Below, piece by piece: positions 1-64,000 of a DNA stretch of 64,000 bases. The translations under genes and the position numbers were made by a program. The notes below the pieces were generated by a model, which was not told the origin of the DNA, did not search any database, and was given only the letters and a program-made list of their open reading frames with translations. The DNA comes from Brachyhypopomus gauderio. Its lineage: Eukaryota > Chordata > Actinopteri > Gymnotiformes > Hypopomidae. The stretch is taken from NCBI RefSeq assembly GCF_052324685.1, contig NC_135213.1:41908200-41972199 (forward strand), read 5' to 3'. The first letter of the stretch is position 1. Each line of letters begins with the position of its first letter.

Positions 1-36
1 TGTTAGTTCTTCCTCAGCCTCGCTTCTTCTTTCCTA
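1..36. repeat. Right end of a preceding unit
   Basis: These 36 bases match the sequence immediately left of every later tRNA-Met (for example 1977-2012), so the array extends beyond the left edge of the window. Confidence 0.95.
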
Positions 37-109
37 GCCTCGTTAGCGCAGTAGGTAGCGCGTCAGTCTCATAATCTGAAGGTCGTGAGTTCGACCCTCA
101 CACGGGGCA
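37..109 (+). tRNA. tRNA-Met-CAT: Elongator tRNA-Met (CAT), unit 1
   Basis: This 73-nt gene encodes the tRNA that inserts internal methionines. The acceptor stem pairs GCCTCGT (37-43) with ACGGGGC (102-108), and the discriminator is A109. The anticodon loop is CTCATAA with CAT at 70-72. The T stem GTGAG/CTCAC closes the loop TTCGACC. It is elongator-type: it has T54-T55 in the T loop, and the anticodon stem lacks the three G-C pairs typical of initiators. The A box is TAGCGCAGTAGG at 44-55 and the B box AGTTCGACCCT at 88-98, so transcription is by RNA polymerase III. No intron and no encoded CCA. An 8-nt trailer leads to T5 at 118-122. From memory it differs from the human gene by about one T-loop base. 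Confidence 0.98.
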
Positions 110-117
110 GCAGAAGC

Positions 118-122
118 TTTTT
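118..122 (+). terminator. Pol III terminator of tRNA-Met (representative)
   Basis: T5 starts 8 nt past the discriminator base. It recurs 82 nt after each tRNA-Met start except in units 10, 17 and 18, where the second T is A. The run sits in a short inverted repeat (CTTTT and AAAAG, 117-128), which may add little because Pol III stops on the T run itself. Confidence 0.93.
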
Positions 123-257
123 GAAAAGATTGACGAGCCCCCAAAAGATGCTCAAACGCTCTTTCCTTATTCACTCGCATGCTGAGCACACCCCCTACCT
201 GAAAATAGTATTGGCACATGACTCTTACAGGTCATCCCTAGTTGATTCAAGCTGTGC

Positions 258-262
258 TTTTT
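258..262 (+). terminator. Possible backup terminator for tRNA-Met
   Basis: T5 followed by C and T4, the first run of at least four T on + after 122. It would be the default stop for the three copies lacking the proximal T5. The role is inferred from the known T4-or-more rule for Pol III. Confidence 0.5.
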
Positions 263-460
263 CTTTTGTAAATTCGCGTGTACACAGCAAGTTGTGTTGC
301 ATCCAATTCAATTCTCTCCACTGACCGTTCAGTCAATACCTTGATGGCGTCTGTATTGACACCTCTACTGAGACATCAAGCTGCCTCTTTGGAGCATGTT
401 CGCTCCCAGATCAAACTGCAGTGTCGTGGTGCCAACACAGAATAATGGACCACGTCGGAC

Positions 461-512
461 ACTTTTCACTTTTGATTCTTTTTGATTCACTTTTGATGAC
501 ACGCTTTTGAAT
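461..512. repeat. Degenerate TTTTGAT microrepeat
   Basis: ACTTTTGATTC-like words recur about four times in 52 bp (cacttttgattc, tttttgattc, acttttgatgac, gcttttgaata). Stable in all units. The T runs could also stop Pol III read-through from tRNA-Met. Confidence 0.6.
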
Positions 513-588
513 ACCTGATCACCTGGAATTGGTACCAGCATGAAGTTAATAGTGAGTAGACTTATGGAGATTCATTTATTTGAATTTT

Positions 589-666
589 CTTCTCAAGCCA
601 TTTGCAACTCAGAAGCAATGACACTTGTGCACTCATCATTGAGCTTGAGGAAGTCCAAGGAATTGA
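589..666 (+). repeat. Degenerate direct repeat, left arm
   Basis: Begins cttctcaagccatttgc and ends tccaaggaattga. The same two blocks at almost the same spacing (78 versus 77 nt) occur at 842-918 on the other side of tRNA-Ser. The middle is diverged. Suggests an old duplication of about 253 bp around tRNA-Ser. Confidence 0.6.
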
Positions 667-692
667 TCTCTATGTTACTCTCGCTCCGCCGA

Positions 693-774
693 GCTGCGAT
701 GGCCGAGAGGTTAAGGCGTTGGACTTGAAATCCAATGGGGTTTCCCCGCGCAGGTTCGACTCCTGCTTGCAGCG
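693..774 (+). tRNA. tRNA-Ser-TGA: tRNA-Ser (TGA), unit 1
   Basis: This 82-nt class II tRNA reads UCA (and possibly UCG) serine codons. The acceptor stem is GCTGCGA (693-699) with TTGCAGC (767-773), including a G6-T67 wobble, and the discriminator is G774, the base expected for seryl-tRNA synthetase. The anticodon stem TTGGA/TCCAA holds the loop CTTGAAA, with TGA at 726-728. The long variable arm GGGG-TTT-CCCC is the serine identity element. The T arm is GCAGG/CCTGC. A box TGGCCGAGAGG is at 700-710 and a consensus B box GGTTCGACTCC at 753-763. Base 15 (707) is G here, expected to form the Levitt pair with C48. The first T4 is 57 nt downstream at 831-834, unusually far. Confidence 0.98.
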
Positions 775-830
775 TGAGTGTCTTGTTGGGCGTGTGGAAA
801 GAGAGAGTGTGCTCTCTTCCTGCTAGCCAG
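775..830 (+). ncRNA. Long tRNA-Ser 3' trailer with hairpin
   Basis: There is no T4 between the end of tRNA-Ser and 831, so the pre-tRNA should carry about 56 nt of trailer plus U residues. Within it, GGAA (796-799) plus GAGAG (801-805) can pair with CTCTC (812-816) plus TTCC (817-820), giving 9 bp, a bulged A800 and a 6-nt loop AGTGTG. It is present after every complete tRNA-Ser copy; a private change in unit 26 lies outside the hairpin. The trailer would be released by RNase Z; whether it persists as a small RNA cannot be seen here. Confidence 0.5.
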
Positions 831-834
831 TTTT
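831..834 (+). terminator. Pol III terminator of tRNA-Ser (representative)
   Basis: Minimal T4 followed by AAA, 57 nt past the mature 3' end. T4 is the weakest common vertebrate terminator, so some read-through is expected. Confidence 0.75.
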
Positions 835-841
835 AAATATG

Positions 842-918
842 CTTCTCATGCCATTTGCAACTTTGTGCTGACAAACTTTAGCAGTCCTAACTGATCCTGA
901 AATAGTCCCAGGAATTGA
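842..918 (+). repeat. Degenerate direct repeat, right arm
   Basis: Begins cttctcatgccatttgc (one mismatch to the left arm over the first 22 bases) and ends tcccaggaattga (one mismatch over the last 15). Confidence 0.6.
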
Positions 919-1168
919 GTTACAAATGGCTGCTTCGTCGTTACAATGTGTTGGCATGGAAATGCAGTGGGGTCTCTTGCAGCGTAGAGGATTAACTTGC
1001 CTCTCTAATGTGATTTGTGATGAGACCTTATGCCACCAGTGGGGAGAGCTCGCACTCACAGGTGCTTCATCCAAAGATCTTCATGCAACATAGCGATGTC
1101 TTGTTTCAGGTAAAAGAAAAAGTGCCACATTCTTTCATGGCCAGTCACTGGTTGCTCCGCCTTGCGCT

Positions 1169-1172
1169 AAAA
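1169..1172 (-). terminator. Pol III terminator of tRNA-Asp (representative)
   Basis: AAAA on +, that is T4 on the transcribed sense, 6 nt past the tRNA-Asp 3' end. T5 and T4 at 1121-1112 could act as backup. Confidence 0.85.
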
Positions 1173-1178
1173 GAGGGT

Positions 1179-1250
1179 CTCCCCGTCGGGGAATCGAACC
1201 CCGGTCTTCCGCGTGACAGGCGGAGATACTATCCACTATACTAACGAGGA
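1179..1250 (-). tRNA. tRNA-Asp-GTC: tRNA-Asp (GTC), unit 1
   Basis: This 72-nt gene reads GAU/GAC aspartate codons. On the minus strand the acceptor stem TCCTCGT (1250-1244) pairs with ACGGGGA (1186-1180), and the discriminator G is at 1179. The anticodon loop CTGTCAC places GTC at 1217-1215. The stem is TCCGC/GCGGA; as I recall the human gene has CCCGC/GCGGG, so the outer pair is a compensated C-G to T-A change. A box TAGTATAGTGG is at 1243-1233 and a perfect B box GGTTCGATTCC at 1200-1190. T4 lies 6 nt past the 3' end (1172-1169), with backup T5 and T4 runs at 1121-1112. It is convergent with tRNA-Ser. CACGTG abuts its 5' end. Confidence 0.98.
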
Positions 1251-1256
1251 CACGTG
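1251..1256. promoter_or_regulatory. CACGTG E-box touching the tRNA-Asp 5' end
   Basis: A canonical 6-bp E-box directly abuts base 1 of tRNA-Asp. Kept in units 1-13, 15-18, 21-24 and 29-31; CACATG in 14, 19, 20 and 25-28; CACCTG in 32. Function is not shown; it lies where Pol III would initiate, so it may be coincidental. Confidence 0.35.
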
Positions 1257-1272
1257 CTGTGTCTCGCAGTGA

Positions 1273-1291
1273 TGCTGAGTCAGGTGACGTG
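1273..1291. promoter_or_regulatory. NF-E2/AP-1-like and CRE-like motifs
   Basis: TGCTGAGTCA (1273-1282) matches the NF-E2/MARE half-plus-core motif and contains AP-1-type TGAGTCA. TGACGTG (1285-1291) resembles a CRE half site. Both sit 23-41 bp upstream of tRNA-Asp and are kept in all units. This is a motif match only. Confidence 0.3.
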
Positions 1292-1456
1292 CACTTGTCC
1301 CCTTGATTTTAAAGTACTCTGAATCATTGTGCCTGCAAGGAGGTGGTAAAAAGAACACATTGTGGTGATATTGACTCACTGTTGCCACTCCTCTTTTACC
1401 ATCGTCAGTTTGTGGACTTATGATAGGAAAAACTCAAAGAATCTTGGTGACCTACA

Positions 1457-1467
1457 GGTTTGATTCA
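1457..1467 (+). promoter_or_regulatory. B-box-like word outside the tRNA genes
   Basis: GGTTTGATTCA resembles the TFIIIC B box GGTTCGANTCC, with the core C changed to T and the last C to A. In type A units the first G is A. No A box or tRNA fold lies at a suitable distance upstream. Could be a weak extra TFIIIC site, a worn tRNA relic, or chance. Confidence 0.25.
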
Positions 1468-1747
1468 TCTGCCTTCCTAGTTAAGTCATGCAAACCATTT
1501 GCTGCAAAATTGGCTTTAGCTACATTGGCAATTCATTTTGTCTTTGTATTCCAGTGCATTGTACCGAACTGCAATATCCATCTTAGATCAACTGAGATTT
1601 TGCATTTCTCTCTTTCCCACATGCAAGTTCTAAATTTCTTGGCACACATTACTGCTTTGCATCTACTAAAAGCACTCCAGAGAAAGCTTCACTTCATACC
1701 TTCATGAGGTAGGTGTCGTTTGTACTTGTATTTTGGTGGTATTTTTG

Positions 1748-1757
1748 TTTTTTTTTT
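1748..1757. repeat. T10/T11 homopolymer
   Basis: Ten T in this unit and eleven in about half of the others (for example units 3-8). It explains nearly all 1976/1977 period differences. It is embedded in a T/G-rich stretch (about 1725-1775). Confidence 0.9.
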
Positions 1758-2012
1758 GTTTGTGTGCGTTGTTTGTCTACTCTTGGAACATCCTGTGATT
1801 GGTTAGGGTAGGATTAGAGTTTAATTACGTTGGCCTCAGATTCTGGTTAATTCCAGGCTTCTTGTGCTAACCTTGTTGTTTGTTAGCTGTTGTTGGCAGT
1901 AATTAGTTGCTGCAGGTGCACTTGCCGCCATGCTCCAAGGAGTGAATTGGGGGCGGATACATTTTTTCTCCAGCTTTGTTAGTTCTTCCTCAGCCTCGCT
2001 TCTTCTTTCCTA

Positions 2013-2085
2013 GCCTCGTTAGCGCAGTAGGTAGCGCGTCAGTCTCATAATCTGAAGGTCGTGAGTTCGACCCTCACACGGGGCA
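2013..2085 (+). tRNA. tRNA-Met-CAT: tRNA-Met (CAT), unit 2
   Basis: Same sequence as the 37-109 copy. Anticodon 2046-2048; T5 terminator 2094-2098. Confidence 0.98.
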
Positions 2086-2668
2086 GCAGAAGCTTTTTGA
2101 AAAGATTGACGAGCCCCCAAAAGATGCTCAAACGCTCTTTCCTTATTCACTCGCATGCTGAGCACACCCCCTACCTGAAAATAGTATTGGCACATGACTC
2201 TTACAGGTCATCCCTAGTTGATTCAAGCTGTGCTTTTTCTTTTGTAAATTCGCGTGTACACAGCAAGTTGTGTTGCATCCAATTCAATTCTCTCCACTGA
2301 CCGTTCAGTCAATACCTTGTTGGCGTCTGTATTGACACCTTTACTGAGACATCAAGCTGCCTCTTTGGAGCATGTTCGCTCCCAGATCAAACTGCAGTGT
2401 CGTGGTGCCAACACAGAATAATGGACCACGTCGGACACTTTTCACTTTTGATTCTTTTTGATTCACTTTTGATGACACGCTTTTGAATACCTGATCACTT
2501 GGAATTGGTACCAGCTTGAAGTTAATAGTGAGTAGACTTATGGAGATTCATTTATTTGAATTTTCTTCTCAAGCCATTTGCAACTCAGAAGCAATGACAC
2601 TTGTGCACTCATCATTGAGCTTGAGGAAGTCCAAGGAATTGATCTCTATGTTACTCTCGCTCCGCCGA

Positions 2669-2750
2669 GCTGCGATGGCCGAGAGGTTAAGGCGTTGGAC
2701 TTGAAATCCAATGGGGTTTCCCCGCGCAGGTTCGACTCCTGCTTGCAGCG
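2669..2750 (+). tRNA. tRNA-Ser-TGA: tRNA-Ser (TGA), unit 2
   Basis: Same sequence as the 693-774 copy (G15). Anticodon 2702-2704; first T4 2807-2810. Confidence 0.98.
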
Positions 2751-3154
2751 TGAGTGTCTTGTTGGGCGTGTGGAAAGAGAGAGTGTGCTCTCTTCCTGCT
2801 AGCCAGTTTTAAATATGCTTCTCATGCCATTTGCAACTTTGTGCTGCCAAACTTTAGCAGTCCTAACTGATCCTGAAATAGTCCCAGGAATTGAGTTACA
2901 AATGGCTGCTTCGTCGTTACAATGTGTTGGCATGGAAATGCAGTGGGGTCTCTTGCAGCGTAGAGGATTAACTTGCCTCTCTAATGTGATTTGTGATGAG
3001 ACCTTATGCCACCAGTGGGGAGAGCTTGCACTCACAGGTGCTTCATCCAAAGATCTTCATGCAACATAGCGATGTCTTGTTTCAGGTAAAAGAAAAAGTG
3101 CCACATTCTTTCATGGCCGGTCACTGGTTGCTCCGCCTTGCGCTAAAAGAGGGT

Positions 3155-3226
3155 CTCCCTGTCGGGGAATCGAACCCCGGTCTTCCGCGTGACAGGCGGA
3201 GATACTATCCACTATACTAACGAGGA
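3155..3226 (-). tRNA. tRNA-Asp-GTC: tRNA-Asp (GTC), unit 2, acceptor-stem variant
   Basis: The only copy with T at 3160 on the + strand, which makes tRNA base 68 an A and gives a C5-A68 mismatch in the middle of the acceptor stem. The rest matches the unit-1 gene. Anticodon 3193-3191; T4 3148-3145. Aminoacylation or 3' processing may be weakened. Confidence 0.95.
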
Positions 3227-3988
3227 CACGTGCTGTGTCTCGCAGTGATGCTGAGTCAGGTGACGTGCACTTGTCCCCTTGATTTTAAAGTACTCTGAAT
3301 CATTGTGCCTGCAAGGAGGTGGTAAAAAGAACACATTGTGGTGATATTGACTCACTGTTGCCACTCCTCTTTTACCATCATCAGTTTGTGGACTTATGAT
3401 AGGAAAAACTCAAAGAATCTTGGTGACCTACAGGTTTGATTCATCTGCCTTCCTAGTTAAGTCATGCGAACCATTTGCTGCAAAATTGGCTTTAGCTACA
3501 TTGGCAATTCATTTTGTCTTCGTATTCCAGTGCATTGTACCGAACTGCAATATCCATCTGAGATCAACTGAGATTTTGCATTTCTCTCTTTCCCACATGC
3601 AAGTTCTGAATTTCTTGGCACACATTACTGCTTTGCATCTACTAAAAGCACTCCAGAGAAAGCTTCACTTCATACCTTCATGAGGTAGCTGTCGTTTGTA
3701 CTTGTATTTTGGTGGTATTTTTGTTTTTTTTTTGTTTGTGTGCGTTGTTTGTCTACTCTTGGAACATCCTGTGATTGGTTAGGGTAGGATTAGAGTTTAA
3801 TTACGTTGGCCTCAGATTCTGGTTAATTCCAGGCTTCTTGTGCTAACCTTGTTGTTTGTTAGCTGTTGTTGGCAGTAATTAGTTGCTGCAGGTGCACTTG
3901 CCGCCATGCTCCAAGGAGTGAATTGGGGGCGGATACATTTTTTCTCCAGCTTTGTTAGTTCTTCCTCAGCCTCGCTTTTTCTTTCCTA

Positions 3989-4061
3989 GCCTCGTTAGCG
4001 CAGTAGGTAGCGCGTCAGTCTCATAATCTGAAGGTCGTGAGTTCGACCCTCACACGGGGCA
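3989..4061 (+). tRNA. tRNA-Met-CAT: tRNA-Met (CAT), unit 3
   Basis: Same sequence as the 37-109 copy. Anticodon 4022-4024; T5 4070-4074. Confidence 0.98.
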
Positions 4062-4644
4062 GCAGAAGCTTTTTGAAAAGATTGACGAGCCCCCAAAAGA
4101 TGCTCAAACGCTCTTTCCTTATTCACTCGCATGCTGAGCACACCCCCTACCTGAAAATAGTATTGGCACATGACTCTTACAGGTCATCCCTAGTTGATTC
4201 AAGCTGTGCTTTTTCTTTTGTAAATTCGCGTGTACACAGCAAGTTGTGTTGCATCCAATTCAATTCTCTCCACTGACCGTTCAGTCAATACCTTGATGGC
4301 GTCTGTATTGACACCTCTACTGAGACATCAAGCTGCCTCTTTGGAGCATGTTCGCTCCCAGATCAAACTGCAGTGTCGTGGTGCCAACACAGAATAATGG
4401 ACCACGTCGGACACTTTTCACTTTTGATTCTTTTTGATTCACTTTTGATGACACGCTTTTGAATACCTGATCACCTGGAATTGGTACCAGCTTGAAGTTA
4501 ATAGTGAGTAGACTTATGGAGATTCATTTATTTGAATTTTCTTCTCAAGCCATTTGCAACTCAGAAGCAATGACACTTGTGCACTCATCATTGAGCTTGA
4601 GGAAGTCCAAGGAATTGATCTCTATGTTACTCTCGCTCCGCCGA

Positions 4645-4726
4645 GCTGCGATGGCCGAGAGGTTAAGGCGTTGGACTTGAAATCCAATGGGGTTTCCCCG
4701 CGCAGGTTCGACTCCTGCTTGCAGCG
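4645..4726 (+). tRNA. tRNA-Ser-TGA: tRNA-Ser (TGA), unit 3
   Basis: G15 form. Anticodon 4678-4680; first T4 4783-4786. Confidence 0.98.
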
Positions 4727-5130
4727 TGAGTGTCTTGTTGGGCGTGTGGAAAGAGAGAGTGTGCTCTCTTCCTGCTAGCCAGTTTTAAATATGCTTCTCA
4801 TGCCATTTGCAACTTTGTGCTGCCAAACTTTAGCAGTCCTAACTGATCCTGAAATAGTCCCAGGAATTGAGTTACAAATGGCTGCTTCGTCGTTACAATG
4901 TGTTGGCATGGAAATGCAGTGGGGTCTCTTGCAGCTTAGAGGATTAACTTGCCTCTCTAATGTGATTTGTGATGAGACCTTATGCCACCAGTGGGGAGAG
5001 CTTGCACTCACAGGTGCTTCATCCAAAGATCTTCATGCAACATAGTGATGTCTTGTTTCAGGTAAAAGAAAAAGTGCCACATTCTTTCATGGCCGGTCAC
5101 TGGTTGCTCCGCCTTGCGCTAAAAGAGGGT

Positions 5131-5202
5131 CTCCCCGTCGGGGAATCGAACCCCGGTCTTCCGCGTGACAGGCGGAGATACTATCCACTATACTAACGAG
5201 GA
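5131..5202 (-). tRNA. tRNA-Asp-GTC: tRNA-Asp (GTC), unit 3
   Basis: Same as the 1179-1250 copy. Anticodon 5169-5167; T4 5124-5121. Confidence 0.98.
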
Positions 5203-5965
5203 CACGTGCTGTGTCTCGCAGTGATGCTGAGTCAGGTGACGTGCACTTGTCCCCTTGATTTTAAAGTACTCTGAATCATTGTGCCTGCAAGGAGGTGGTA
5301 AAAAGAACACATTGTGGTGATATTGACTCACTGTTGCCACTCCTCTTTTACCATCGTCAGTTTGTGGACTTATGATAGGAAAAACTCAAAGAATCTTGGT
5401 GACCTACAAGTTTGATTCATCTGCCTTCCTAGTTAAGTCATGCAAACCATTTGCTGCAAAATTGGCTTTAGCTACATTGGCAATTCATTTTGTCTTCGTA
5501 TTCCAGTGCATTGTACCGAACTGCAATATCCATCTTAGATCAACTGAGATTTTGCATTTCTCTCTTTCCCACATGCAAGTTCTGAATTTCTTGGCACACA
5601 TTACTGCTTTGCATCTACTAAAAGCACTCCAGAGAAAGCTTCACTTCATACCTTCATGAGGTAGGTGTCGTTTGTACTTGTATTTTGGTGGTATTTTTGT
5701 TTTTTTTTTTGTTTGTGTGCGTTGTTTGTCTACTCTTGGAACATCCTGTGATTGGTTAGGGTAGGATTAGAGTTTAATTACGTTGGCCTCAGATTCTGGT
5801 TAATTCCAGGCTTCTTGTGCTAACCTTGTTGTTTGTTAGCTGTTGTTGGCAGTAATTAGTTGCTGCAGGTGCACTTGCCGCCATGCTCCAAGGAGTGAAT
5901 TGGGGGCGGATACATTTTTTCTCCAGCTTTGTTAGTTCTTCCTCAGCCTCGCTTCTTCTTTCCTA

Positions 5966-6038
5966 GCCTCGTTAGCGCAGTAGGTAGCGCGTCAGTCTCA
6001 TAATCTGAAGGTCGTGAGTTCGACCCTCACACGGGGCA
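5966..6038 (+). tRNA. tRNA-Met-CAT: tRNA-Met (CAT), unit 4
   Basis: Consensus copy. Anticodon 5999-6001; T5 6047-6051. Confidence 0.98.
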
Positions 6039-6621
6039 GCAGAAGCTTTTTGAAAAGATTGACGAGCCCCCAAAAGATGCTCAAACGCTCTTTCCTTATT
6101 CACTCGCATGCTGAGCACACCCCCTACCTGAAAATAGTATTGGCACATGACTCTTACAGGTCATCCCTAGTTGATTCAAGCTGTGCTTTTTCTTTTGTAA
6201 ATTCGCGTGTACACAGCAAGTTGTGTTGCATCCAATTCAATTCTCTCCACTGACCGTTCAGTCAATACCTTGTTGGCGTCTGTATTGACACCTCTACTGA
6301 GACATCAAGCTGCCTCTTTGGAGCATGTTCGCTCCCAGATCAAACTGCAGTGTCGTGGTGCCAACACAGAATAATGGACCACGTCGGACACTTTTCACTT
6401 TTGATTCTTTTTGATTCACTTTTGATGACACGCTTTTGAATACCTGATCACTTGGAATTGGTACCAGCTTGAAGTTAATAGTGAGTAGACTTATGGAGAT
6501 TCATTTATTTGAATTTTCTTCTCAAGCCATTTGCAACTCAGAAGCAATGACACTTGTGCACTCATCATTGAGCTTGAGGAAGTCCAAGGAATTGATCTCT
6601 ATGTTACTCTCGCTCCGCCGA

Positions 6622-6703
6622 GCTGCGATGGCCGAGAGGTTAAGGCGTTGGACTTGAAATCCAATGGGGTTTCCCCGCGCAGGTTCGACTCCTGCTTGCA
6701 GCG
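6622..6703 (+). tRNA. tRNA-Ser-TGA: tRNA-Ser (TGA), unit 4
   Basis: G15 form. Anticodon 6655-6657; first T4 6760-6763. Confidence 0.98.
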
Positions 6704-7107
6704 TGAGTGTCTTGTTGGGCGTGTGGAAAGAGAGAGTGTGCTCTCTTCCTGCTAGCCAGTTTTAAATATGCTTCTCATGCCATTTGCAACTTTGTGCTGC
6801 CAAACTTTAGCAGTCCTAACTGATCCTGAAATAGTCCCAGGAATTGAGTTACAAATGGCTGCTTCGTCGTTACAATGTGTTGGCATGGAAATGCAGTGGG
6901 GTCTCTTGCAGAGTAGAGGATTAACTTGCCTCTCTAATGTGATTTGTGATGAGACCTTATGCCACCAGTGGGGAGAGCTTGCACTCACAGGTGCTTCATC
7001 CAAAGATCTTCATGCAACATAGCGATGTCTTGTTTCAGGTAAAAGAAAAAGTGCCACATTCTTTCATGGCCGGTCACTGGTTGCTCCGCCTTGAGCTAAA
7101 AGAGGGT

Positions 7108-7179
7108 CTCCCCGTCGGGGAATCGAACCCCGGTCTTCCGCGTGACAGGCGGAGATACTATCCACTATACTAACGAGGA
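7108..7179 (-). tRNA. tRNA-Asp-GTC: tRNA-Asp (GTC), unit 4
   Basis: Consensus copy. Anticodon 7146-7144; T4 7101-7098, followed downstream by a private base change (gAgctaaaa). Confidence 0.98.
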
Positions 7180-7942
7180 CACGTGCTGTGTCTCGCAGTG
7201 ATGCTGAGTCAGGTGACGTGCACTTGTCCCCTTGATTTTAAAGTACTCTGAATCATTGTGCCTGCAAGGAGGTGGTAAAAAGAACACATTGTGGTGATAT
7301 TGACTCACTGTTGCCACTCCTCTTTTACCATCATCAGTTTGTGGACTTATGATAGGAAAAACTCAAAGAATCTTGGTGACCTACAGGTTTGATTCATCTG
7401 CCTTCCTAGTTAAGTCATGCGAACCATTTGCTGCAAAATTGGCTTTAGCTACATTGGGAATTCATTTTGTCTTCGTATTCCAGTGCATTGTACCGAACTG
7501 CAATATCCATCTTAGATCAACTGAGATTTTGCATTTCTCTCTTTCCCACATGCAAGTTCTGAATTTCTTGGCACACATTACTGCTTTGCATCTACTAAAA
7601 GCACTCCAGAGAAAGCTTCACTTCATACCTTCATGAGGTAGGTGTCGTTTGTACTTGTATTTTGGTGGTATTTTTGTTTTTTTTTTTGTTTGTGTGCGTT
7701 GTTTGTCTACTCTTGGAACATCCTGTGATTGGTTAGGGTAGGATTAGAGTTTAATTACGTTGGCCTCAGATTCTGGTTAATTCCAGGCTTCTTGTGCTAA
7801 CCTTGTTGTTTGTTAGCTGTTGTTGGCAGTAATTAGTTGCTGCAGGTGCACTTGCCGCCATGCTCCAAGGAGTGAATTGGGGGCGGATACATTTTTTCTC
7901 CAGCTTTGTTAGTTCTTCCTCAGCCTCGCTTCTTCTTTCCTA

Positions 7943-35617: not shown

Positions 35618-35690
35618 GCCTCGTTAGCGCAGTAGGTAGCGCGTCAGTCTCATAATCTGAATGTCGTGAGTTCGACCCTCACACGGGGCA
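35618..35690 (+). tRNA. tRNA-Met-CAT: tRNA-Met (CAT), unit 19, position-45 variant
   Basis: T at 35662 replaces G45 in the variable loop (AGGTC becomes ATGTC); G46 is kept. Anticodon 35651-35653; T5 35699-35703. Stems and A/B boxes are intact, so the gene is probably still transcribed. Confidence 0.97.
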
Positions 35691-41547: not shown

Positions 41548-41620
41548 GCCTCGTTAGCGCAGTAGGTAGCGCGTCAGTCTCATAATCTGAAGGTCGTGAG
41601 TTTGACCCTCACACGGGGCA
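41548..41620 (+). tRNA. tRNA-Met-CAT: tRNA-Met (CAT), unit 22, T56 variant
   Basis: T at 41603 replaces the invariant C56, so the T loop is TTTGACC and the B box core TTCGA becomes TTTGA. C56 normally pairs with G19 and is a key TFIIIC contact, so both folding and transcription are likely reduced. Anticodon 41581-41583; T5 41629-41633 intact. Confidence 0.96.
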
Positions 41621-43523: not shown

Positions 43524-43596
43524 GCCTCGTTAGCGCAGTAGGTAGCGCGTCAGTCTCATAATCTGAAGGTCGTGAGTTTGACCCTCACACGGGGCA
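43524..43596 (+). tRNA. tRNA-Met-CAT: tRNA-Met (CAT), unit 23, T56 variant
   Basis: Same C56-to-T change as unit 22, at 43579. Anticodon 43557-43559; T5 43605-43609. Confidence 0.96.
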
Positions 43597-48129: not shown

Positions 48130-48211
48130 GCTGCGATGGCCGAGAGGTTAAGGCGTTGGACTTGAAATCCAATGGGGTTTCCCCGCGCAGGTTCGACTCC
48201 TGCTTGCAGCG
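48130..48211 (+). tRNA. tRNA-Ser-TGA: tRNA-Ser (TGA), unit 25
   Basis: G15 form. Anticodon 48163-48165; first T4 48268-48271. Confidence 0.98.
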
Positions 48212-48615: not shown

Positions 48616-48687
48616 CTCCCCGTCGGGGAATCGAACCCCGGTCTTCCGCGTGACAGGCGGAGATACTATCCACTATACTAACGAGGA
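48616..48687 (-). tRNA. tRNA-Asp-GTC: tRNA-Asp (GTC), unit 25
   Basis: Consensus tRNA with CACATG at the E-box position. Anticodon 48654-48652; T4 48609-48606. Confidence 0.98.
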
Positions 48688-49449
48688 CACATGCTGTGGC
48701 TCGCAGTGATGCTGAGTCAGGTGACGTGCACTTGTCCCCTTGATTTTAAAGTACTCTGAATCATTGTGCCTGCAAGGAGGTGGTAAAAAGAACACATTGT
48801 GGTGATATTGACTCACTGTTGCCACTCCTCTTTTACCATCGTCAGTTTGTGGACTTATGATAGGAAAAACTCAAAGAATCTTGGTGACCTACAGGTTTGA
48901 TTCATCTGCCTTCCTAGTTAAGTCATGCGAACCATTTCCTGCAAAATTGGCTTTAGCTACATTGGCAATTCATTTTGTCTTCGTATTCCAGTGCATTGTA
49001 ACGAACTGCAATATCCATCTTAGATCAACTGAGATTTTGCATTTCTCTCTTTCCCACATGCAAGTTCTGAATTTCTTGGCACACATTACTGCTTTGCATC
49101 TACTAAAAGCACTCCAGAGAAAGCTTCACTTCATACCTTCATGAGGTAGGTGTCGTTTGTACTTGTATTTTGGTGGTATTTTTGTTTTTTTTTTGTTTGT
49201 GTGCGTTGTTTGTTTACTCTTGGAACATCCTGTGATTGGTTAGGGTAGGATTAGAGTTTAATTACGTTGGCCTCAGATTCTGGTTAATTCCAGGCTTCTT
49301 GTGCTAACCTTGTTGTTTGTTAGCTGTTGTTGGCAGTAATTAGTTGCTGCAGGTGCACTTGCCGCCATGCTCCAAGGAGTGAATTGGGGGCGGATACATT
49401 TTTTCTCCAGCTTTGTTAGTTCTTCCTCAGCCTCGCTTCTTCTTTCCTA

Positions 49450-49522
49450 GCCTCGTTAGCGCAGTAGGTAGCGCGTCAGTCTCATAATCTGAAGGTCGTG
49501 AGTTCGACCCTCACACGGGGCA
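49450..49522 (+). tRNA. tRNA-Met-CAT: tRNA-Met (CAT), unit 26
   Basis: Consensus copy. Anticodon 49483-49485; T5 49531-49535. Confidence 0.98.
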
Positions 49523-50105
49523 GCAGAAGCTTTTTGAAAAGATTGACGAGCCCCCAAAAGATGCTCAAACGCTCTTTCCTTATTCACTCGCATGCTGAGC
49601 ACACCCCCTACCTGAAAATAGTATTGGCACATGACTCTTACAGGTCATCCCTAGTTGATTCAAGCTGTGCTTTTTCTTTTGTAAATTCGCGTGTGCACAG
49701 CAAGTTGTGTTGCATCCAATTCAATTCTCTCCACTGACCGTTCAGTCAATACCTTGATGGCGTCTGTATTGACACCTCTACTGAGACATCAAGCTGCCTC
49801 TTTGGAGCATGTTTGCTCCCAGATCAAACTGCAGTGTCGTGGAGCCAACACAGAATAATGGACCACGTCGGACACTTTTCACTTTTGATTCTTTTTGATT
49901 CACTTTTGATGACACGCTTTTGAATACCTGATCACCTGGAATTGGTACCAGCTTGAAGTTAATAGTGAGTAGACTTATGGAGATTCATTTATTTGAATTT
50001 TCTTCTCAAGCCATTTGCAACTCAGAAGCAATGACACTTGTGCACTCATCATTGAGCTTGAGGAAGTCCAAGGAATTGATCTCTATGTTACTCTCGCTCC
50101 GCCGA

Positions 50106-50187
50106 GCTGCGATGGCCGAGAGGTTAAGGCGTTGGACTTGAAATCCAATGGGGTTTCCCCGCGCAGGTTCGACTCCTGCTTGCAGCG
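50106..50187 (+). tRNA. tRNA-Ser-TGA: tRNA-Ser (TGA), unit 26
   Basis: G15 form. Anticodon 50139-50141; first T4 50244-50247. The trailer has a private G-to-A change near 50202. Confidence 0.98.
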
Positions 50188-50591
50188 TGAGTGTCTTGTT
50201 GAGCGTGTGGAAAGAGAGAGTGTGCTCTCTTCCTGCTAGCCAGTTTTAAATATGCTTCTCATGCCATTTGCAACTTTGTGCTGCCAAACTTTAGCAGTCC
50301 TAACTGATCCTGAAATAGTCCCAGGAATTGAGTTACAAATGGCTGCTTCGTCGTTACAATGTGTTGGCATGGAAATGCAGTGGGGTCTCTTGCAGCTTAG
50401 AGGATTAACTTGCCTCTCTAATGTGATTTGTGATGAGACCTTATGCCACCAGTGGGGAGAGCTTGCACTCACAGGTGCTTCATCCAAAGATCTTCATGCA
50501 ACATAGCGATGTCTTGTTTCAGGTAAAAGAAAAAGTGCCACATTCTTTCATGGCCGGTCACTGGTTGCTCCGCCTTGCGCTAAAAGAGGGT

Positions 50592-50663
50592 CTCCCCGTC
50601 GGGGAATCGAACCCCGGTCTTCCGCGTGACAGGCGGAGATACTATCCACTATACTAACGAGGA
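50592..50663 (-). tRNA. tRNA-Asp-GTC: tRNA-Asp (GTC), unit 26
   Basis: Consensus tRNA with CACATG at the E-box position. Anticodon 50630-50628; T4 50585-50582. Confidence 0.98.
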
Positions 50664-51425
50664 CACATGCTGTGGCTCGCAGTGATGCTGAGTCAGGTGA
50701 CGTGCACTTGTCCCCTTGATTTTAAAGTACTCTGAATCATTGTGCCTGCAAGGAGGTGGTAAAAAGAACACATTGTGGTGATATTGACTCACTGTTGCCA
50801 CTCCTCTTTTACCATCGTCAGTTTGTGGACTTATGATAGGAAAAACTCAAAGAATCTTGGTGACCTACAGGTTTGATTCATCTGCCTTCCTAGTTAAGTC
50901 ATGCGAACCATTTCCTGCAAAATTGGCTTTAGCTACATTGGCAATTCATTTTGTCTTCGTATTCCAGTGCATTGTACCGAACTGCAATATCCATCTTAGA
51001 TCAACTGAGATTTTGCATTTCTCTCTTTCCCACATGCAAGTTCTGAATTTCTTGGCACACATTACTGCTTTGCATCTACTAAAAGCACTCCAGAGAAAGC
51101 TTCACTTCATACCTTCATGAGGTAGGTGTCGTTTGTACTTGTATTTTGGTGGTATTTTTGTTTTTTTTTTGTTTGTGTGCGTTGTTTGTCTACTCTTGGA
51201 ACATCCTGTGATTGGTTAGGGTAGGATTAGAGTTTAATTACGTTGGCCTCAGATTCTGGTTAATTCCAGGCTTCTTGTGCTAACCTTGTTGTTTGTTAGC
51301 TGTTGTTGGCAGTAATTAGTTGCTGCAGGTGCACTTGCCGCCATGCTCCAAGGAGTGAATTGGGGGCGGATACATTTTTTCTCCAGCTTTGTTAGTTCTT
51401 CCTCAGCCTCGCTTCTTCTTTCCTA

Positions 51426-51498
51426 GCCTCGTTAGCGCAGTAGGTAGCGCGTCAGTCTCATAATCTGAAGGTCGTGAGTTCGACCCTCACACGGGGCA
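51426..51498 (+). tRNA. tRNA-Met-CAT: tRNA-Met (CAT), unit 27
   Basis: Consensus copy. Anticodon 51459-51461; T5 51507-51511. Confidence 0.98.
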
Positions 51499-52081
51499 GC
51501 AGAAGCTTTTTGAAAAGATTGACGAGCCCCCAAAAGATGCTCAAACGCTCTTTCCTTATTCACTCGCATGCTGAGCACACCCCCTACCTGAAAATAGTAT
51601 TGGCACATGACTCTTACAGGTCATCCCTAGTTGATTCAAGCTGTGCTTTTTCTTTTGTAAATTCGCGTGTGCACAGCAAGTTGTGTTGCATCCAATTCAA
51701 TTCTCTCCACTGACCGTTCAGTCAATACCTTGATGGCGTCTGTATTGACACCTCTACTGAGACATCAAGCTGCCTCTTTGGAGCATGTTTGCTCCCAGAT
51801 CAAACTGCAGTGTCGTGGAGCCAACACAGAATAATGGACCACGTCGGACACTTTTCACTTTTGATTCTTTTTGATTCACTTTTGATGACACGCTTTTGAA
51901 TACCTGATCACCTGGAATTGGTACCAGCTTGAAGTTAATAGTGAGTAGACTTATCGAGATTCATTTATTTGAATTTTCTTCTCAAGCCATTTGCAACTCA
52001 GAAGCAATGACACTTGTGCACTCATCATTGAGCTTGAGGAAGTCCAAGGAATTGATCTCTATGTTACTCTCGCTCCGCCGA

Positions 52082-52163
52082 GCTGCGATGGCCGAGAGGT
52101 TAAGGCGTTGGACTTGAAATCCAATGGGGTTTCCCCGCGCAGGTTCGACTCCTGCTTGCAGCG
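52082..52163 (+). tRNA. tRNA-Ser-TGA: tRNA-Ser (TGA), unit 27
   Basis: G15 form. Anticodon 52115-52117; first T4 52220-52223. Confidence 0.98.
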
Positions 52164-52567
52164 TGAGTGTCTTGTTGGGCGTGTGGAAAGAGAGAGTGTG
52201 CTCTCTTCCTGCTAGCCAGTTTTAAATATGCTTCTCATGCCATTTGCAACTTTGTGCTGCCAAACTTTAGCAGTCCTAACTGATCCTGAAATAGTCCCAG
52301 GAATTGAGTTACAAATGGCTGCTTCGTCGTTACAATGTGTTGGCATGGAAATGCAGTGGGGTCTCTTGCAGCTTAGAGGATTAACTTGCCTCTCTAATGT
52401 GATTTGTGATGAGACCTTATGCCACCAGTGGGGAGAGCTTGCACTCACAGGTGCTTCATCCAAAGATCTTCATGCAACATAGCGATGTCTTGTTTCAGGT
52501 AAAAGAAAAAGTGCCACATTCTTTCATGGCCGGTCACTGGTTGCTCCGCCTTGCGCTAAAAGAGGGT

Positions 52568-52639
52568 CTCCCCGTCGGGGAATCGAACCCCGGTCTTCCG
52601 CGTGACAGGCGGAGATACTATCCACTATACTAACGAGGA
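52568..52639 (-). tRNA. tRNA-Asp-GTC: tRNA-Asp (GTC), unit 27
   Basis: Consensus tRNA with CACATG at the E-box position. Anticodon 52606-52604; T4 52561-52558. Confidence 0.98.
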
Positions 52640-53401
52640 CACATGCTGTGGCTCGCAGTGATGCTGAGTCAGGTGACGTGCACTTGTCCCCTTGATTTTA
52701 AAGTACTCTGAATCATTGTGCCTGCAAGGAGGTGGTAAAAAGAACACATTGTGGTGATATTGACTCACTGTTGCCACTCCTCTTTTACCATCGTCAGTTT
52801 GTGGACTTATGATAGGAAAAACTCAAAGAATCTTGGTGACCTACAGGTTTGATTCATCTGCCTTCCTAGTTAAGTCATGCGAACCATTTCCTGCAAAATT
52901 GGCTTTAGCTACATTGGCAATTCATTTTGTCTTCGTATTCCAGTGCATTGTAACGAACTGCAATATCCATCTTAGATCAACTGAGATTTTGCATTTCTCT
53001 CTTTCCCACATGCAAGTTCTGAATTTCTTGGCACACATTACTGCTTTGCATCTACTAAAAGCACTCCAGAGAAAGCTTCACTTCATACCTTCATGAGGTA
53101 GGTGTCGTTTGTACTTGTATTTTGGTGGTATTTTTGTTTTTTTTTTGTTTGTGTGCGTTGTTTGTTTACTCTTGGAACATCCTGTGATTGGTTAGGGTAG
53201 GATTAGAGTTTAATTACGTTGGCCTCAGATTCTGGTTAATTCCAGGCTTCTTGTGCTAACCTTGTTGTTTGTTAGCTGTTGTTGGCAGTAATTAGTTGCT
53301 GCAGGTGCACTTGCCGCCATGCTCCAAGGAGTGAATTGGGGGCGGATACATTTTTTCTCCAGCTTTGTTAGTTCTTCCTCAGCCTCGCTTCTTCTTTCCT
53401 A

Positions 53402-53474
53402 GCCTCGTTAGCGCAGTAGGTAGCGCGTCAGTCTCATAATCTGAAGGTCGTGAGTTCGACCCTCACACGGGGCA
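53402..53474 (+). tRNA. tRNA-Met-CAT: tRNA-Met (CAT), unit 28
   Basis: Consensus copy. Anticodon 53435-53437; T5 53483-53487. Confidence 0.98.
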
Positions 53475-54057
53475 GCAGAAGCTTTTTGAAAAGATTGACG
53501 AGCCCCCAAAAGATGCTCAAACGCTCTTTCCTTATTCACTCGCATGCTGAGCACACCCCCTACCTGAAAATAGTATTGGCACATGACTCTTACAGGTCAT
53601 CCCTAGTTGATTCAAGCTGTGCTTTTTCTTTTGTAAATTCGCGTGTGCACAGCAAGTTGTGTTGCATCCAATTCAATTCTCTCCACTGACCGTTCAGTCA
53701 ATACCTTGATGGCGTCTGTATTGACACCTCTACTGAGACATCAAGCTGCCTCTTTGGAGCATGTTTGCTCCCAGATCAAACTGCAGTGTCGTGGAGCCAA
53801 CACAGAATAATGGACCACGTCGGACACTTTTCACTTTTGATTCTTTTTGATTCACTTTTGATGACACGCTTTTGAATACCTGATCACCTGGAATTGGTAC
53901 CAGCTTGAAGTTAATAGTGAGTAGACTTATGGAGATTCATTTATTTGAATTTTCTTCTCAAGCCATTTGCAACTCAGAAGCAATGACACTTGTGCACTCA
54001 TCATTGAGCTTGAGGAAGTCCAAGGAATTGATCTCTATGTTACTCTCGCTCCGCCGA

Positions 54058-54139
54058 GCTGCGATGGCCGAGAGGTTAAGGCGTTGGACTTGAAATCCAA
54101 TGGGGTTTCCCCGCGCAGGTTCGACTCCTGCTTGCAGCG
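54058..54139 (+). tRNA. tRNA-Ser-TGA: tRNA-Ser (TGA), unit 28
   Basis: G15 form. Anticodon 54091-54093; first T4 54196-54199. Confidence 0.98.
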
Positions 54140-54543
54140 TGAGTGTCTTGTTGGGCGTGTGGAAAGAGAGAGTGTGCTCTCTTCCTGCTAGCCAGTTTTA
54201 AATATGCTTCTCATGCCATTTGCAACTTTGTGCTGCCAAACTTTAGCAGTCCTAACTGATCCTGAAATAGTCCCAGGAATTGAGTTACAAATGGCTGCTT
54301 CGTCGTTACAATGTGTTGGCATGGAAATGCAGTGGGGTCTCTTGCAGCTTAGAGGATTAACTTGCCTCTCTAATGTGATTTGTGATGAGACCTTATGCCA
54401 CCAGTGGGGAGAGCTTGCACTCACAGGTGCTTCATCCAAAGATCTTCATGCAACATAGCGATGTCTTGTTTCAGGTAAAAGAAAAAGTGCCACATTCTTT
54501 CATGGCCGGTCACTGGTTGCTCCGCCTTGCGCTAAAAGAGGGT

Positions 54544-54615
54544 CTCCCCGTCGGGGAATCGAACCCCGGTGTTCCGCGTGACAGGCGGAGATACTATCCA
54601 CTATACTAACGAGGA
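54544..54615 (-). tRNA. tRNA-Asp-GTC: tRNA-Asp (GTC), unit 28, position-45 variant
   Basis: G at 54571 on + makes tRNA base 45 a C instead of G (variable loop AGAC becomes ACAC). Base 45 usually contacts the 10-25 pair, so a mild structural effect is possible. CACATG at the E-box position. Anticodon 54582-54580; T4 54537-54534. Confidence 0.96.
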
Positions 54616-55377
54616 CACATGCTGTGGCTCGCAGTGATGCTGAGTCAGGTGACGTGCACTTGTCCCCTTGATTTTAAAGTACTCTGAATCATTGTGCCTG
54701 CAAGGAGGTGGTAAAAAGAACACATTGTGGTGATATTGACTCACTGTTGCCACTCCTCTTTTACCATCGTCAGTTTGTGGACTTATGATAGGAAAAACTC
54801 AAAGAATCTTGGTGACCTACAGGTTTGATTCATCTGCCTTCCTAGTTAAGTCATGCGAACCATTTCCTGCAAAATTGGCTTTAGCTACATTGGCAATTCA
54901 TTTTGTCTTCGTATTCCAGTGCATTGTACCGAACTGCAATATCCATCTTAGATCAACTGAGATTTTGCATTTCTCTCTTTCCCACATGCAAGTTCTGAAT
55001 TTCTTGGCACACATTACTGCTTTGCATCTACTAAAAGCACTCCAGAGAAAGCTTCACTTCATACCTTCATGAGGTAGGTGTCGTTTGTACTTGTATTTTG
55101 GTGGTATTTTTGTTTTTTTTTTGTTTGTGTGCGTTGTTTGTCTACTCTTGGAACATCCTGTGATTGGTTAGGGTAGGATTAGAGTTTAATTACGTTGGCC
55201 TCAGATTCTGGTTAATTCCAGGCTTCTTGTGCTAACCTTGTTGTTTGTTAGCTGTTGTTGGCAGTAATTAGTTGCTGCAGGTGCACTTGCCGCCATGCTC
55301 CAAGGAGTGAATTGGGGGCGGATACATTTTTTCTCCAGCTTTGTTAGTTCTTCCTCAGCCTCGCTTCTTCTTTCCTA

Positions 55378-60470: not shown

Positions 60471-60542
60471 CTCCCCGTCGGGGAATCGAACCCCGGTCTT
60501 CCGCGTGACAGGCGGAGATACTATCCACTATACTAACGAGGA
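60471..60542 (-). tRNA. tRNA-Asp-GTC: tRNA-Asp (GTC), unit 31
   Basis: Consensus copy with CACGTG kept. Anticodon 60509-60507; T4 60464-60461. Confidence 0.98.
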
Positions 60543-61304
60543 CACGTGCTGTGTCTCGCAGTGATGCTGAGTCAGGTGACGTGCACTTGTCCCCTTGATT
60601 TTAAAGTACTCTGAATCATTGTGCCTGCAAGGAGGTGGTAAAAAGAACACATTGTGGTGATATTGACTCACTGTTGCCACTCCTCTTTTACCATCGTCAG
60701 TTTGTGGACTTATGATAGGAAAAACTCAAAGAATCTTGGTGACCTACAGGTTTGATTCATCTGCCTTCCTAGTTAAGTCATGCGAACCATTTCCTGCAAA
60801 ATTGGCTTTAGCTACATTGGCAATTCATTTTGTCTTCGTATTCCAGTGCATTGTACCGAACTGCAATATCCATCTTAGATCAACTGAGATTTTGCATTTC
60901 TCTCTTTCCCACATGCAAGTTCTGAATTTCTTGGCACACATTACTGCTTTGCATCTACTAAAAGCACTCCAGAGAAAGCTTCACTTCATACCTTCATGAG
61001 GTAGGTGTCGTTTGTACTTGTATTTTGGTGGTATTTTTGTTTTTTTTTTGTTTGTGTGCGTTGTTTGTTTACTCTTGGAACATCCTGTGATTGGTTAGGG
61101 TAGGATTAGAGTTTAATTACGTTGGCCTCAGATTCTGGTTAATTCCAGGCTTCTTGTGCTAACCTTGTTGTTTGTTAGCTGTTGTTGGCAGTAATTAGTT
61201 GCTGCAGGTGCACTTGCCGCCATGCTCCAAGGAGTGAATTGGGGGCGGATACATTTTTTCTCCAGCTTTGTTAGTTCTTCCTCAGCCTCGCTTCTTCTTT
61301 CCTA

Positions 61305-61377
61305 GCCTCGTTAGCGCAGTAGGTAGCGCGTCAGTCTCATAATCTGAAGGTCGTGAGTTCGACCCTCACACGGGGCA
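61305..61377 (+). tRNA. tRNA-Met-CAT: tRNA-Met (CAT), unit 32
   Basis: Consensus copy. Anticodon 61338-61340; T5 61386-61390. Confidence 0.98.
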
Positions 61378-61960
61378 GCAGAAGCTTTTTGAAAAGATTG
61401 ACGAGCCCCCAAAAGATGCTCAAACGCTCTTTCCTTATTCACTCGCATGCTGAGCACACCCCCTACCTGAAAATAGTATTGGCACATGACTCTTACAGGT
61501 CATCCCTAGTTGATTCAAGCTGTGCTTTTTCTTTTGTAAATTCGCGTGTGCACAGCAAGTTGTGTTGCATCCAATTCAATTCTCTCCACTGACCGTTCAG
61601 TCAATACCTTGATGGCGTCTGTATTGACACCTCTACTGAGACATCAAGCTGCCTCTTTGGAGCATGTTTGCTCCCAGATCAAACTGCAGTGTCGTGGAGC
61701 CAACACAGAATAATGGACCACGTCGGACACTTTTCACTTTTGATTCTTTTTGATTCACTTTTGATGACACGCTTTTGAATACCTGATCACCTGGAATTGG
61801 TACCAGCTTGAAGTTAATAGTGAGTAGACTTATGGAGATTCATTTATTTGAATTTTCTTCTCAAGCCATTTGCAACTCAGAAGCAATGACACTTGTGCAC
61901 TCATCATTGAGCTTGAGGAAGTCCAAGGAATTGATCTCTATGTTACTCTCGCTCCGCCGA

Positions 61961-62042
61961 GCTGCGATGGCCGAGAGGTTAAGGCGTTGGACTTGAAATC
62001 CAATGGGGTTTCCCCGCGCAGGTTCGACTCCTGCTTGCAGCG
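61961..62042 (+). tRNA. tRNA-Ser-TGA: tRNA-Ser (TGA), unit 32
   Basis: G15 form. Anticodon 61994-61996; first T4 62099-62102. Confidence 0.98.
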
Positions 62043-62446
62043 TGAGTGTCTTGTTGGGCGTGTGGAAAGAGAGAGTGTGCTCTCTTCCTGCTAGCCAGTT
62101 TTAAATATGCTTCTCATGCCATTTGCAACTTTGTGCTGCCAAACTTTAGCAGTCCTAACTGATCCTGAAATAGTCCCAGGAATTGAGTTACAAATGGCTG
62201 CTTCGTCGTTACAATGTGTTGGCATGGAAATGCAGTGGGGTCTCTTGCAGCTTAGAGGATTAACTTGCCTCTCTAATGTGATTTGTGATGAGACCTTATG
62301 CCACCAGTGGGGAGAGCTTGCACTCACAGGTGCTTCATCCAAAGATCTTCATGCAACATAGCGATGTCTTGTTTCAGGTAAAAGAAAAAGTGCCACATTC
62401 TTTCATGGCCGGTCACTGGTTGCTCCGCCTTGCGCTAAAAGAGGGT

Positions 62447-62518
62447 CTCCCCGTCGGGGAATCGAACCCCGGTCTTCCGCGTGACAGGCGGAGATACTAT
62501 CCACTATACTAACGAGGA
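62447..62518 (-). tRNA. tRNA-Asp-GTC: tRNA-Asp (GTC), unit 32
   Basis: Consensus tRNA; the E-box position reads CACCTG (62519-62524), unique in the window. Anticodon 62485-62483; T4 62440-62437. Confidence 0.98.
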
Positions 62519-63280
62519 CACCTGCTGTGGCTCGCAGTGATGCTGAGTCAGGTGACGTGCACTTGTCCCCTTGATTTTAAAGTACTCTGAATCATTGTGC
62601 CTGCAAGGAGGTGGTAAAAAGAACACATTGTGGTGATATTGACTCACTGTTGCCACTCCTCTTTTACCATCGTCAGTTTGTGGACTTATGATAGGAAAAA
62701 CTCAAAGAATCTTGGTGACCTACAGGTTTGATTCATCTGCCTTCCTAGTTAAGTCATGCGAACCATTTGCTGCAAAATTGGCTTTAGCTACATTGGCAAT
62801 TCATTTTGTCTTTGTATTCCAGTGCATTGTACCGAACTGCAATATCCATCTTAGATCAACTGAGATTTTGCATTTCTCTCTTTCCCACATGCAAGTTCTG
62901 AATTTCTTGGCACACATTACTGCTTTGCATCTACTAAAAGCACTCCAGAGAAAGCTTCACTTCATACCTTCATGAGGTAGGTGTCGTTTGTACTTGTATT
63001 TTGGTGGTATTTTTGTTTTTTTTTTGTTTGTGTGCGTTGTTTGTTTACTCTTGGAACATCCTGTGATTGGTTAGGGTAGGATTAGAGTTTAATTACGTTG
63101 GCCTCAGATTCTGGTTAATTCCAGGCTTCTTGTGCTAACCTTGTTGTTTGTTAGCTGTTGTTGGCAGTAATTAGTTGCTGCAGGTGCACTTGCCGCCATG
63201 CTCCAAGGAGTGAATTGGGGGCGGATACATTTTTTCTCCAGCTTTGTTAGTTCTTCCTCAGCCTCGCTTCTTCTTTCCTA

Positions 63281-63353
63281 GCCTCGTTAGCGCAGTAGGT
63301 AGCGCGTCAGTCTCATAATCTGAAGGTCGTGAGTTCGACCCTCACACGGGGCA
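63281..63353 (+). tRNA. tRNA-Met-CAT: tRNA-Met (CAT), unit 33
   Basis: Consensus copy. Anticodon 63314-63316; T5 63362-63366. Confidence 0.98.
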
Positions 63354-63936
63354 GCAGAAGCTTTTTGAAAAGATTGACGAGCCCCCAAAAGATGCTCAAA
63401 CGCTCTTTCCTTATTCACTCGCATGCTGAGCACACCCCCTACCTGAAAATAGTATTGGCACATGACTCTTACAGGTCATCCCTAGTTGATTCAAGCTGTG
63501 CTTTTTCTTTTGTAAATTCGCGTGTGCACAGCAAGTTGTGTTGCATCCAATTCAATTCTCTCCACTGACCGTTCAGTCAATACCTTGATGGCGTCTGTAT
63601 TGACACCTCTACTGAGACATCAAGCTGCCTCTTTGGAGCATGTTTGCTCCCAGATCAAACTGCAGTGTCGTGGAGCCAACACAGAATAATGGACCACGTC
63701 GGACACTTTTCACTTTTGATTCTTTTTGATTCACTTTTGATGACACGCTTTTGAATACCTGATCACCTGGAATTGGTACCAGCTTGAAGTTAATAGTGAG
63801 TAGACTTATGGAGATTCATTTATTTGAATTTTCTTCTCAAGCCATTTGCAACTCAGAAGCAATGACACTTGTGCACTCATCATTGAGCTTGAGGAAGTCC
63901 AAGGAATTGATCTCTATGTTACTCTCGCTCCGCCGA

Positions 63937-64000
63937 GCTGCGATGGCCGAGAGGTTAAGGCGTTGGACTTGAAATCCAATGGGGTTTCCCCGCGCAGGTT
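63937..64000 (+). tRNA. tRNA-Ser-TGA: tRNA-Ser (TGA), unit 33, cut by window end
   Basis: The first 64 of 82 nt, G15 form, anticodon 63970-63972. The window stops inside the T arm; this is an edge effect, not a truncated gene. Confidence 0.96.

Follow-up and report, generated by a model that had tools for sequence, protein, structure and literature searches.

A homogenized tandem array of Met-Ser-Asp tRNA gene cassettes in Brachyhypopomus gauderio, with a possible role as a developmental tRNA reservoir

Tandem arrays in which transfer RNA (tRNA) genes of several isotypes are repeated together are already a known kind of locus, including outside vertebrates. The repeats of Xenopus hold several different genes per unit, and the X. 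laevis tDNA unit measures 3.18 kb and carries about eight genes. Here we analyze a stretch of 64,000 nucleotides from Brachyhypopomus gauderio (NCBI RefSeq assembly GCF_052324685.1, contig NC_135213.1, positions 41,908,200 to 41,972,199 of the forward strand), referred to below as the window, which is a single unbroken tandem array of a 2-kb unit with one gene each for tRNA-Met, tRNA-Ser and tRNA-Asp; compared to this unit, that of X. laevis is longer and has a different gene set. Oocyte-type repeats of Xenopus are likewise tandemly reiterated tRNA genes (PMC11500080, PMC3565088). The variable number tandem repeat (VNTR) of tRNA genes at human 1q23.3 and its mouse counterpart likewise combine several isotypes head to tail, with genes on both strands and the Asp gene in antisense orientation, and the human locus has 9-43 units per allele with 98% unit identity (PMC4041453). 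At stake in such loci is which of three things the arrayed genes amount to, namely silent ballast, an element of chromatin or a tRNA reserve for particular stages, and the array described here could help in testing why certain genomes retain tRNA genes in such large copy numbers.

The layout of the array is regular throughout. An earlier note made from the sequence had reported 98 tRNA genes in 32 complete and two partial head-to-tail units, with the Asp gene inverted and no border within 64 kb, and our analysis agreed with it on each of these points. ARAGORN detected 97 complete genes in positions 1-64000, namely 33 Met(CAT) and 32 Ser(TGA) genes on the forward strand and 32 Asp(GTC) genes on the reverse strand. 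Rfam cmscan, applied to the whole window at the gathering level, gave 98 matches to RF00005 and none to any other family; the 98th match is a Ser gene (63937-64000) truncated by the end of the window. All 97 complete genes have covariance-model scores of 53.2-66.8 bits, compared to a gathering score of 29. Met, Ser and Asp genes are present in every one of the 32 complete units, which are repeated head to tail without foreign sequence between them, and the spacing from one Met gene to the next places the units and the partial units at either side (Table 1). The repeat reaches both ends of the window, and the true number of units may exceed 32. The locus is a large tandem array of nuclear tRNA genes of the RNA polymerase III (Pol III) type 2 class, and we regard the array, together with its concerted evolution, as very close to certain.

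The units are highly uniform. Their alignment has 1977 columns, of which 50 are variable; the mean pairwise identity is 99.52%, and the two most different units are separated by 18 alignment columns. Such identity rules out chance as the origin of the repetition. Several observations showed that variants have been reshuffled between units, which is the reason to invoke concerted evolution, with unequal exchange or conversion as the mechanism. First, all four allele combinations occur at 118 of 351 pairs of the 27 informative sites, and these define at least six recombination intervals. Second, the farther apart two sites lie in the unit, the weaker is their linkage disequilibrium (Spearman -0.22; a value as extreme arose in 7 of 2000 permutations of position). 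Third, adjacent units are more similar than others, with 6.94 compared to 9.52 average differences (0 of 10,000 permutations as low). Units 5, 8 and 11 share one and the same sequence, units 21 and 29 do not differ from each other, and only two differences separate unit 25 from 27, 26 from 28, and 24 from 30. The uniformity of the units is kept by unequal exchange and gene conversion. Spacer variants specific to single units are also present, and the order of variants across the units is a record of unequal exchange in a tRNA array. Units 25-26 and 27-28 (47475-55377) resemble a duplication of a two-unit block.

The same high identity makes arrays of this kind hard to assemble, and a short array could in principle have been inflated by the assembler, which we consider very improbable here. 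The 32 units comprise 29 distinct sequences, all 31 adjacent pairs are distinct, and 22 of the 23 variants private to a single unit are substitutions. Exact repeats in the window extend over at most 3,662 bp, and the usual long reads are longer than this. Because of this repeat length and the distinct adjacent pairs, long reads could resolve the order of the units, and inflation by the assembler appears unlikely from the sequence.

The private variants are not evenly spread, as 13 of the 23 fall in the first four units. A block of four units this rich in variants lay at either end of the row of units in 0.08%, and anywhere in 0.9%, of unit-order permutations, figures that apply to a block picked post hoc, once the data were known. 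Less homogenized units are expected near the edge of an array, and because of this concentration of private variants in units 1-4, the border of the array may lie not far to the left of the window. Alternatively, the assembly may be of poorer quality in these units, although all 13 of their private variants are substitutions.

From its G1:C72 ends and TTCGA T-loop, we take the Met gene to be of the elongator type. Runs of T resembling Pol III terminators follow the Met and Asp genes closely, and the first T4 behind the Ser gene is more distant; it may act as a late terminator that leaves a long 3′ trailer. None of the three consensus genes encodes a CCA end, and eukaryotic nuclear tRNA genes usually lack one. 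Because the consensus tRNA sequence is found in most copies, most of them are probably transcribable. A minority carry changes (Table 1). C56 is critical for TFIIIC binding, for which reason the two Met copies with C56T are probably weakened in function. In 3 of 33 copies, the T5 behind the Met gene is disrupted by a T to A change (units 10, 17 and 18, at 17909, 31746 and 33723), so that read-through to later T runs is predicted in these units. The split at position 15 of the Ser gene would pass into the mature tRNA, and this allele might make array-derived tRNA-Ser distinguishable in tRNA-seq, provided that copies elsewhere lack it. An E-box-like hexamer, CACGTG at 1251-1256, adjoins the start of the Asp gene on its upstream side in 24 of 32 units; the hexamer reads CATGTG in seven other units and CAGGTG in one, and its presence may be due to chance.

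Table 1. Positions of the array, its units, the elements of the representative unit and the variant gene copies, numbered within the window
Feature	Position	Strand	Evidence and remarks
Tandem array	1..64000	.	Met-to-Met spacing, unit alignment, 97 ARAGORN genes, 98 Rfam matches
Left partial unit, 36 bp	1..36		precedes the first complete unit
32 complete units, each 1974-1977 bp	37-63280		Met-to-Met spacing
Right partial unit, 720 bp	63281-64000		continues the repeat past the last complete unit
Unit 1, representative, 1976 bp	37..2012	+	spacing and sequence reading
First four units, with 13/23 unit-private variants	37..7942	+	unit-order permutations
tRNA-Met(CAT)	37..109	+	ARAGORN, Rfam; consensus sequence in 30/33 copies
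T5 behind Met gene, Pol III terminator-like	118..122	+	starts after 8 nt
Degenerate direct duplication, left copy, just upstream of Ser gene	579..678	+	score 80, 0/1000 shuffles
tRNA-Ser(TGA)	693..774	+	ARAGORN; position 15 is G in 22/32 and A in 10/32 complete copies
First T4 3′ of Ser gene	831..834	+	56-nt spacer between; positions 795-798 of the unit
Same Ser-flanking duplication, right copy, about 253 bp downstream of left copy	832..923	+	score 80, 0/1000 shuffles
Probable decayed remnant of another tRNA-Ser gene, in register with the Ser-flanking duplication	926..1000	+	score 37
T4 behind Asp gene, Pol III terminator-like	1169..1172	-	starts after 6 nt; positions 1133-1136 of the unit
tRNA-Asp(GTC)	1179..1250	-	ARAGORN; consensus sequence in 30/32 copies
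Asp variant, gene position 67, 3′ acceptor strand (unit 2)	3155..3226	-	Rfam 53.2 compared to consensus 57.5
Met variant G45T (unit 19)	35618..35690	+	unit alignment
Met variant C56T, B box, T-loop (unit 22)	41548..41620	+	unit alignment
Met variant C56T, B box, T-loop (unit 23)	43524..43596	+	unit alignment
Asp variant, gene position 45 (unit 28)	54544..54615	-	Rfam 54.1 compared to consensus 57.5

The unit also preserves traces of its own history. A degenerate direct duplication with copies of about 100 bp flanks the Ser gene, and in register with its right copy lies a decayed segment that resembles a second tRNA-Ser and is called by neither ARAGORN nor Rfam. The segment has its equivalent in the consensus of the units, and such a remnant is probably present in every unit. 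When the in-register segment was shuffled, one shuffle in 1000 reached its score, both with dinucleotides preserved and with simple shuffling; in a search of the whole unit, the same score was not significant compared to the maximum of 44 in 200 shuffles. Because it is significant solely in register with the upstream duplication, this second Ser copy is graded as probable. No relic of a Met or Asp gene scored above shuffles on either strand of the unit. These features are likely to reflect an old duplication of a segment containing the Ser gene, of which one copy decayed before the 2-kb unit was amplified.

The unit has a GC content of 45%. Its only internal tandem repeat is a 33-bp run with 3.1 copies of an 11-mer. 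No RNA family other than tRNA was found by Rfam at E up to 1 in positions 1-4100. Among the 13 open reading frames (ORFs) of at least 50 amino acids that overlap positions 1-2100, the five searched had no Pfam match at E up to 1; the eight left out of this search include two first-unit ORFs that recur in the next unit.

The CpG content of the unit differs between genes and spacers. The ratio of observed to expected CpG is 0.36-0.57 in the three spacers, 0.98-1.32 in the genes and 0.58 in the whole unit, and the corresponding ratios of TpG and CpA in the spacers exceed 1.3. Of the variable sites of the transition type, 11 of 23 are at CpG, compared to about 6% of positions (p = 3e-8). The scarcity of CpG in the spacers, together with the surplus of transitions at CpG sites, points indirectly to a probable methylation of the array's cytosines in the germ line. 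Such a pattern would be expected from germline methylation of the vertebrate kind, but other lineages methylate DNA too. The CpGs of the genes may persist owing to the structure of the tRNA itself.

Taken as a whole, we give about an even chance (roughly 0.5) to the explanation that the locus is an amplified, homogenized and probably methylated array that serves as a developmental reservoir. In this explanation, a 2-kb Met-Ser-Asp cassette was amplified, and unequal exchange together with gene conversion maintains its uniformity; the array would provide a high-dose Pol III reservoir of the three tRNAs, drawn on in oogenesis or in the early embryo, and it would be largely silent in most somatic cells. 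By analogy with other arrays, a stage-specific reservoir for oogenesis or the early embryo is the most likely role, a tentative assignment that we hold at somewhat less than even odds. In Xenopus, arrayed oocyte-specific tRNA genes switch on at zygotic genome activation, according to a commentary (PMC11500080). In zebrafish, a maternal role for the concentration of tRNA genes has been stated as a hypothesis not yet studied (PMC11075544), and the function of arrays is described as unclear in Entamoeba (PMC2652664) and Hydractinia (PMC11067881). The CpG-poor spacers, the excess of CpG transitions and the two Met copies with a changed B box are indirect hints of silencing. A more specific version is rather doubtful: the array would be a dedicated maternal or early-embryonic locus whose elongator Met, Ser-TGA and Asp-GTC tRNAs belong to a separate translation machinery of the oocyte. 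Sister arrays would then carry the other isotypes, and the locus would be silent in somatic tissue and become open during oogenesis or when the zygotic genome is activated.

Several points weigh against a developmental reservoir. First, three isotypes alone could not serve balanced translation. Second, the Asp gene is inverted here, whereas nearly all clustered pairs are parallel in Xenopus and Danio (PMC2888827). Third, methylation need not mean silencing: for an arrayed tRNA cluster of Arabidopsis, methylation is described as unlikely to be what silences it, and the recruitment of Pol III to methylated tRNA repeats is cited in the same report (PMC12308677). Fourth, CpG also holds more than its share of the variable sites of the transversion type (5 of 23, p = 0.011), and part of the CpG excess is therefore not due to deamination. 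Finally, variable columns are not rarer in the genes (5 of 227) than in the spacers (45 of 1750; p = 1.0), so that this comparison reveals no selection on single copies.

This equal density also speaks for a neutral, selfish tandem expansion, in which most copies would be silent and the array would persist by recombination alone. The changes in the B box, acceptor strand or terminator of some copies are in line with such an expansion, and for Entamoeba it has been argued that homogenization can spread a variant without selective advantage (PMC2652664). However, all 97 complete genes score as tRNA, which is expected under selection on some copies or after a recent expansion, and we consider this reading unlikely.

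A constitutive supply, in which every tissue draws additional Met, Ser and Asp tRNA from the array and drift has enlarged its copy number, is rather doubtful. In most copies, the consensus genes and the T runs that closely follow Met and Asp are compatible with it, and many lineages have large clustered tRNA complements without a systematic phylogenetic pattern (PMC2888827). On the other hand, the excess of CpG transitions suggests methylation, an arrayed cluster of Arabidopsis is silenced in most tissues (PMC12308677), and the arrays of Xenopus are described as oocyte-specific (PMC11500080).

The specific gene combination has so far no counterpart among the matches listed in our searches: in the open PMC literature, within the parts of the articles covered, supplements and the older X. 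laevis tDNA papers lying outside this scope, a 2-kb unit of Met(+), Ser(+) and Asp(-) was not found. Exact-pattern scans of prokaryote and virus collections, with part or most of the Ser, Asp and Met genes and with a spacer 25-mer, gave no match in any of five scans, a result that says little on eukaryotes because of the content of these collections.

Compared to the human 1q23.3 VNTR, the array in B. gauderio differs in several features. The human unit is 7.3 kb long, GC-rich and CpG-island-like and contains CTCF sites together with pieces of long terminal repeat and long interspersed nuclear elements (PMC4041453), whereas the unit here is 2 kb long, has a GC content of 45% and is CpG-poor, with depletion in the spacers and an overall ratio (0.58) unlike that of an island. 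The human gene set is Leu, Gly, Glu, Gly and Asp (PMC4041453), and here only Met, Ser and Asp are present. These differences bear on a further explanation, according to which the array is a macrosatellite with a mainly structural effect on chromatin, as a barrier, insulator or boundary, and with a minor tRNA output. For human and mouse, the function of a boundary element has been suggested for a tandem repeat of tRNA genes (PMC4041453), but the GC-rich, CpG-island-like character of that repeat is not shared by the present unit, and a primarily structural role is quite improbable for it.

Among fishes, chromosome 4 of zebrafish carries very many tRNA genes in a repeat-rich region for which a maternal role has been hypothesized; unlike the present array, this region also holds 5S, small nuclear RNA and protein genes (PMC11075544, PMC3392230). 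In Danio, K-N, K-S and R-T are the commonest combinations of neighbors, and the genes of nearly every pair run parallel (PMC2888827). In cnidarians, tandem arrays of non-coding RNA genes occur in Hydractinia and Nematostella, and no Met-Ser-Asp unit appears in the passages of that report covered here, the gene sets of the units being given in its supplements (PMC11067881).

More distant systems share other features of the array. The SYY cluster of Arabidopsis is likewise a tandem cassette, methylated and with some degenerate copies, but it is a plant locus with a Ser-Tyr-Tyr set, which is expressed in root tips and kept silent in most tissues (PMC12308677). In Entamoeba, almost all genomic tRNA genes are arrayed, likewise in multi-gene tandem units whose uniformity the authors attribute most likely to concerted evolution, and E. 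histolytica has a neighbor pair of Ser(TGA) and Asp; the intergenic regions of E. histolytica and E. dispar are extremely A+T-rich with short tandem repeats, in contrast to the 45% GC of the unit here (PMC2652664). In Phytophthora infestans, the tRNA repeat units are monomers, dimers or trimers with different gene sets, such as Thr-Trp-Ser (PMC9584435). Its dimeric and trimeric arrays show far greater diversity, unlike the uniform three-gene array of B. gauderio, whereas its monomeric arrays on single chromosomes have few variants that often lie near one edge, as they do here (PMC9584435).

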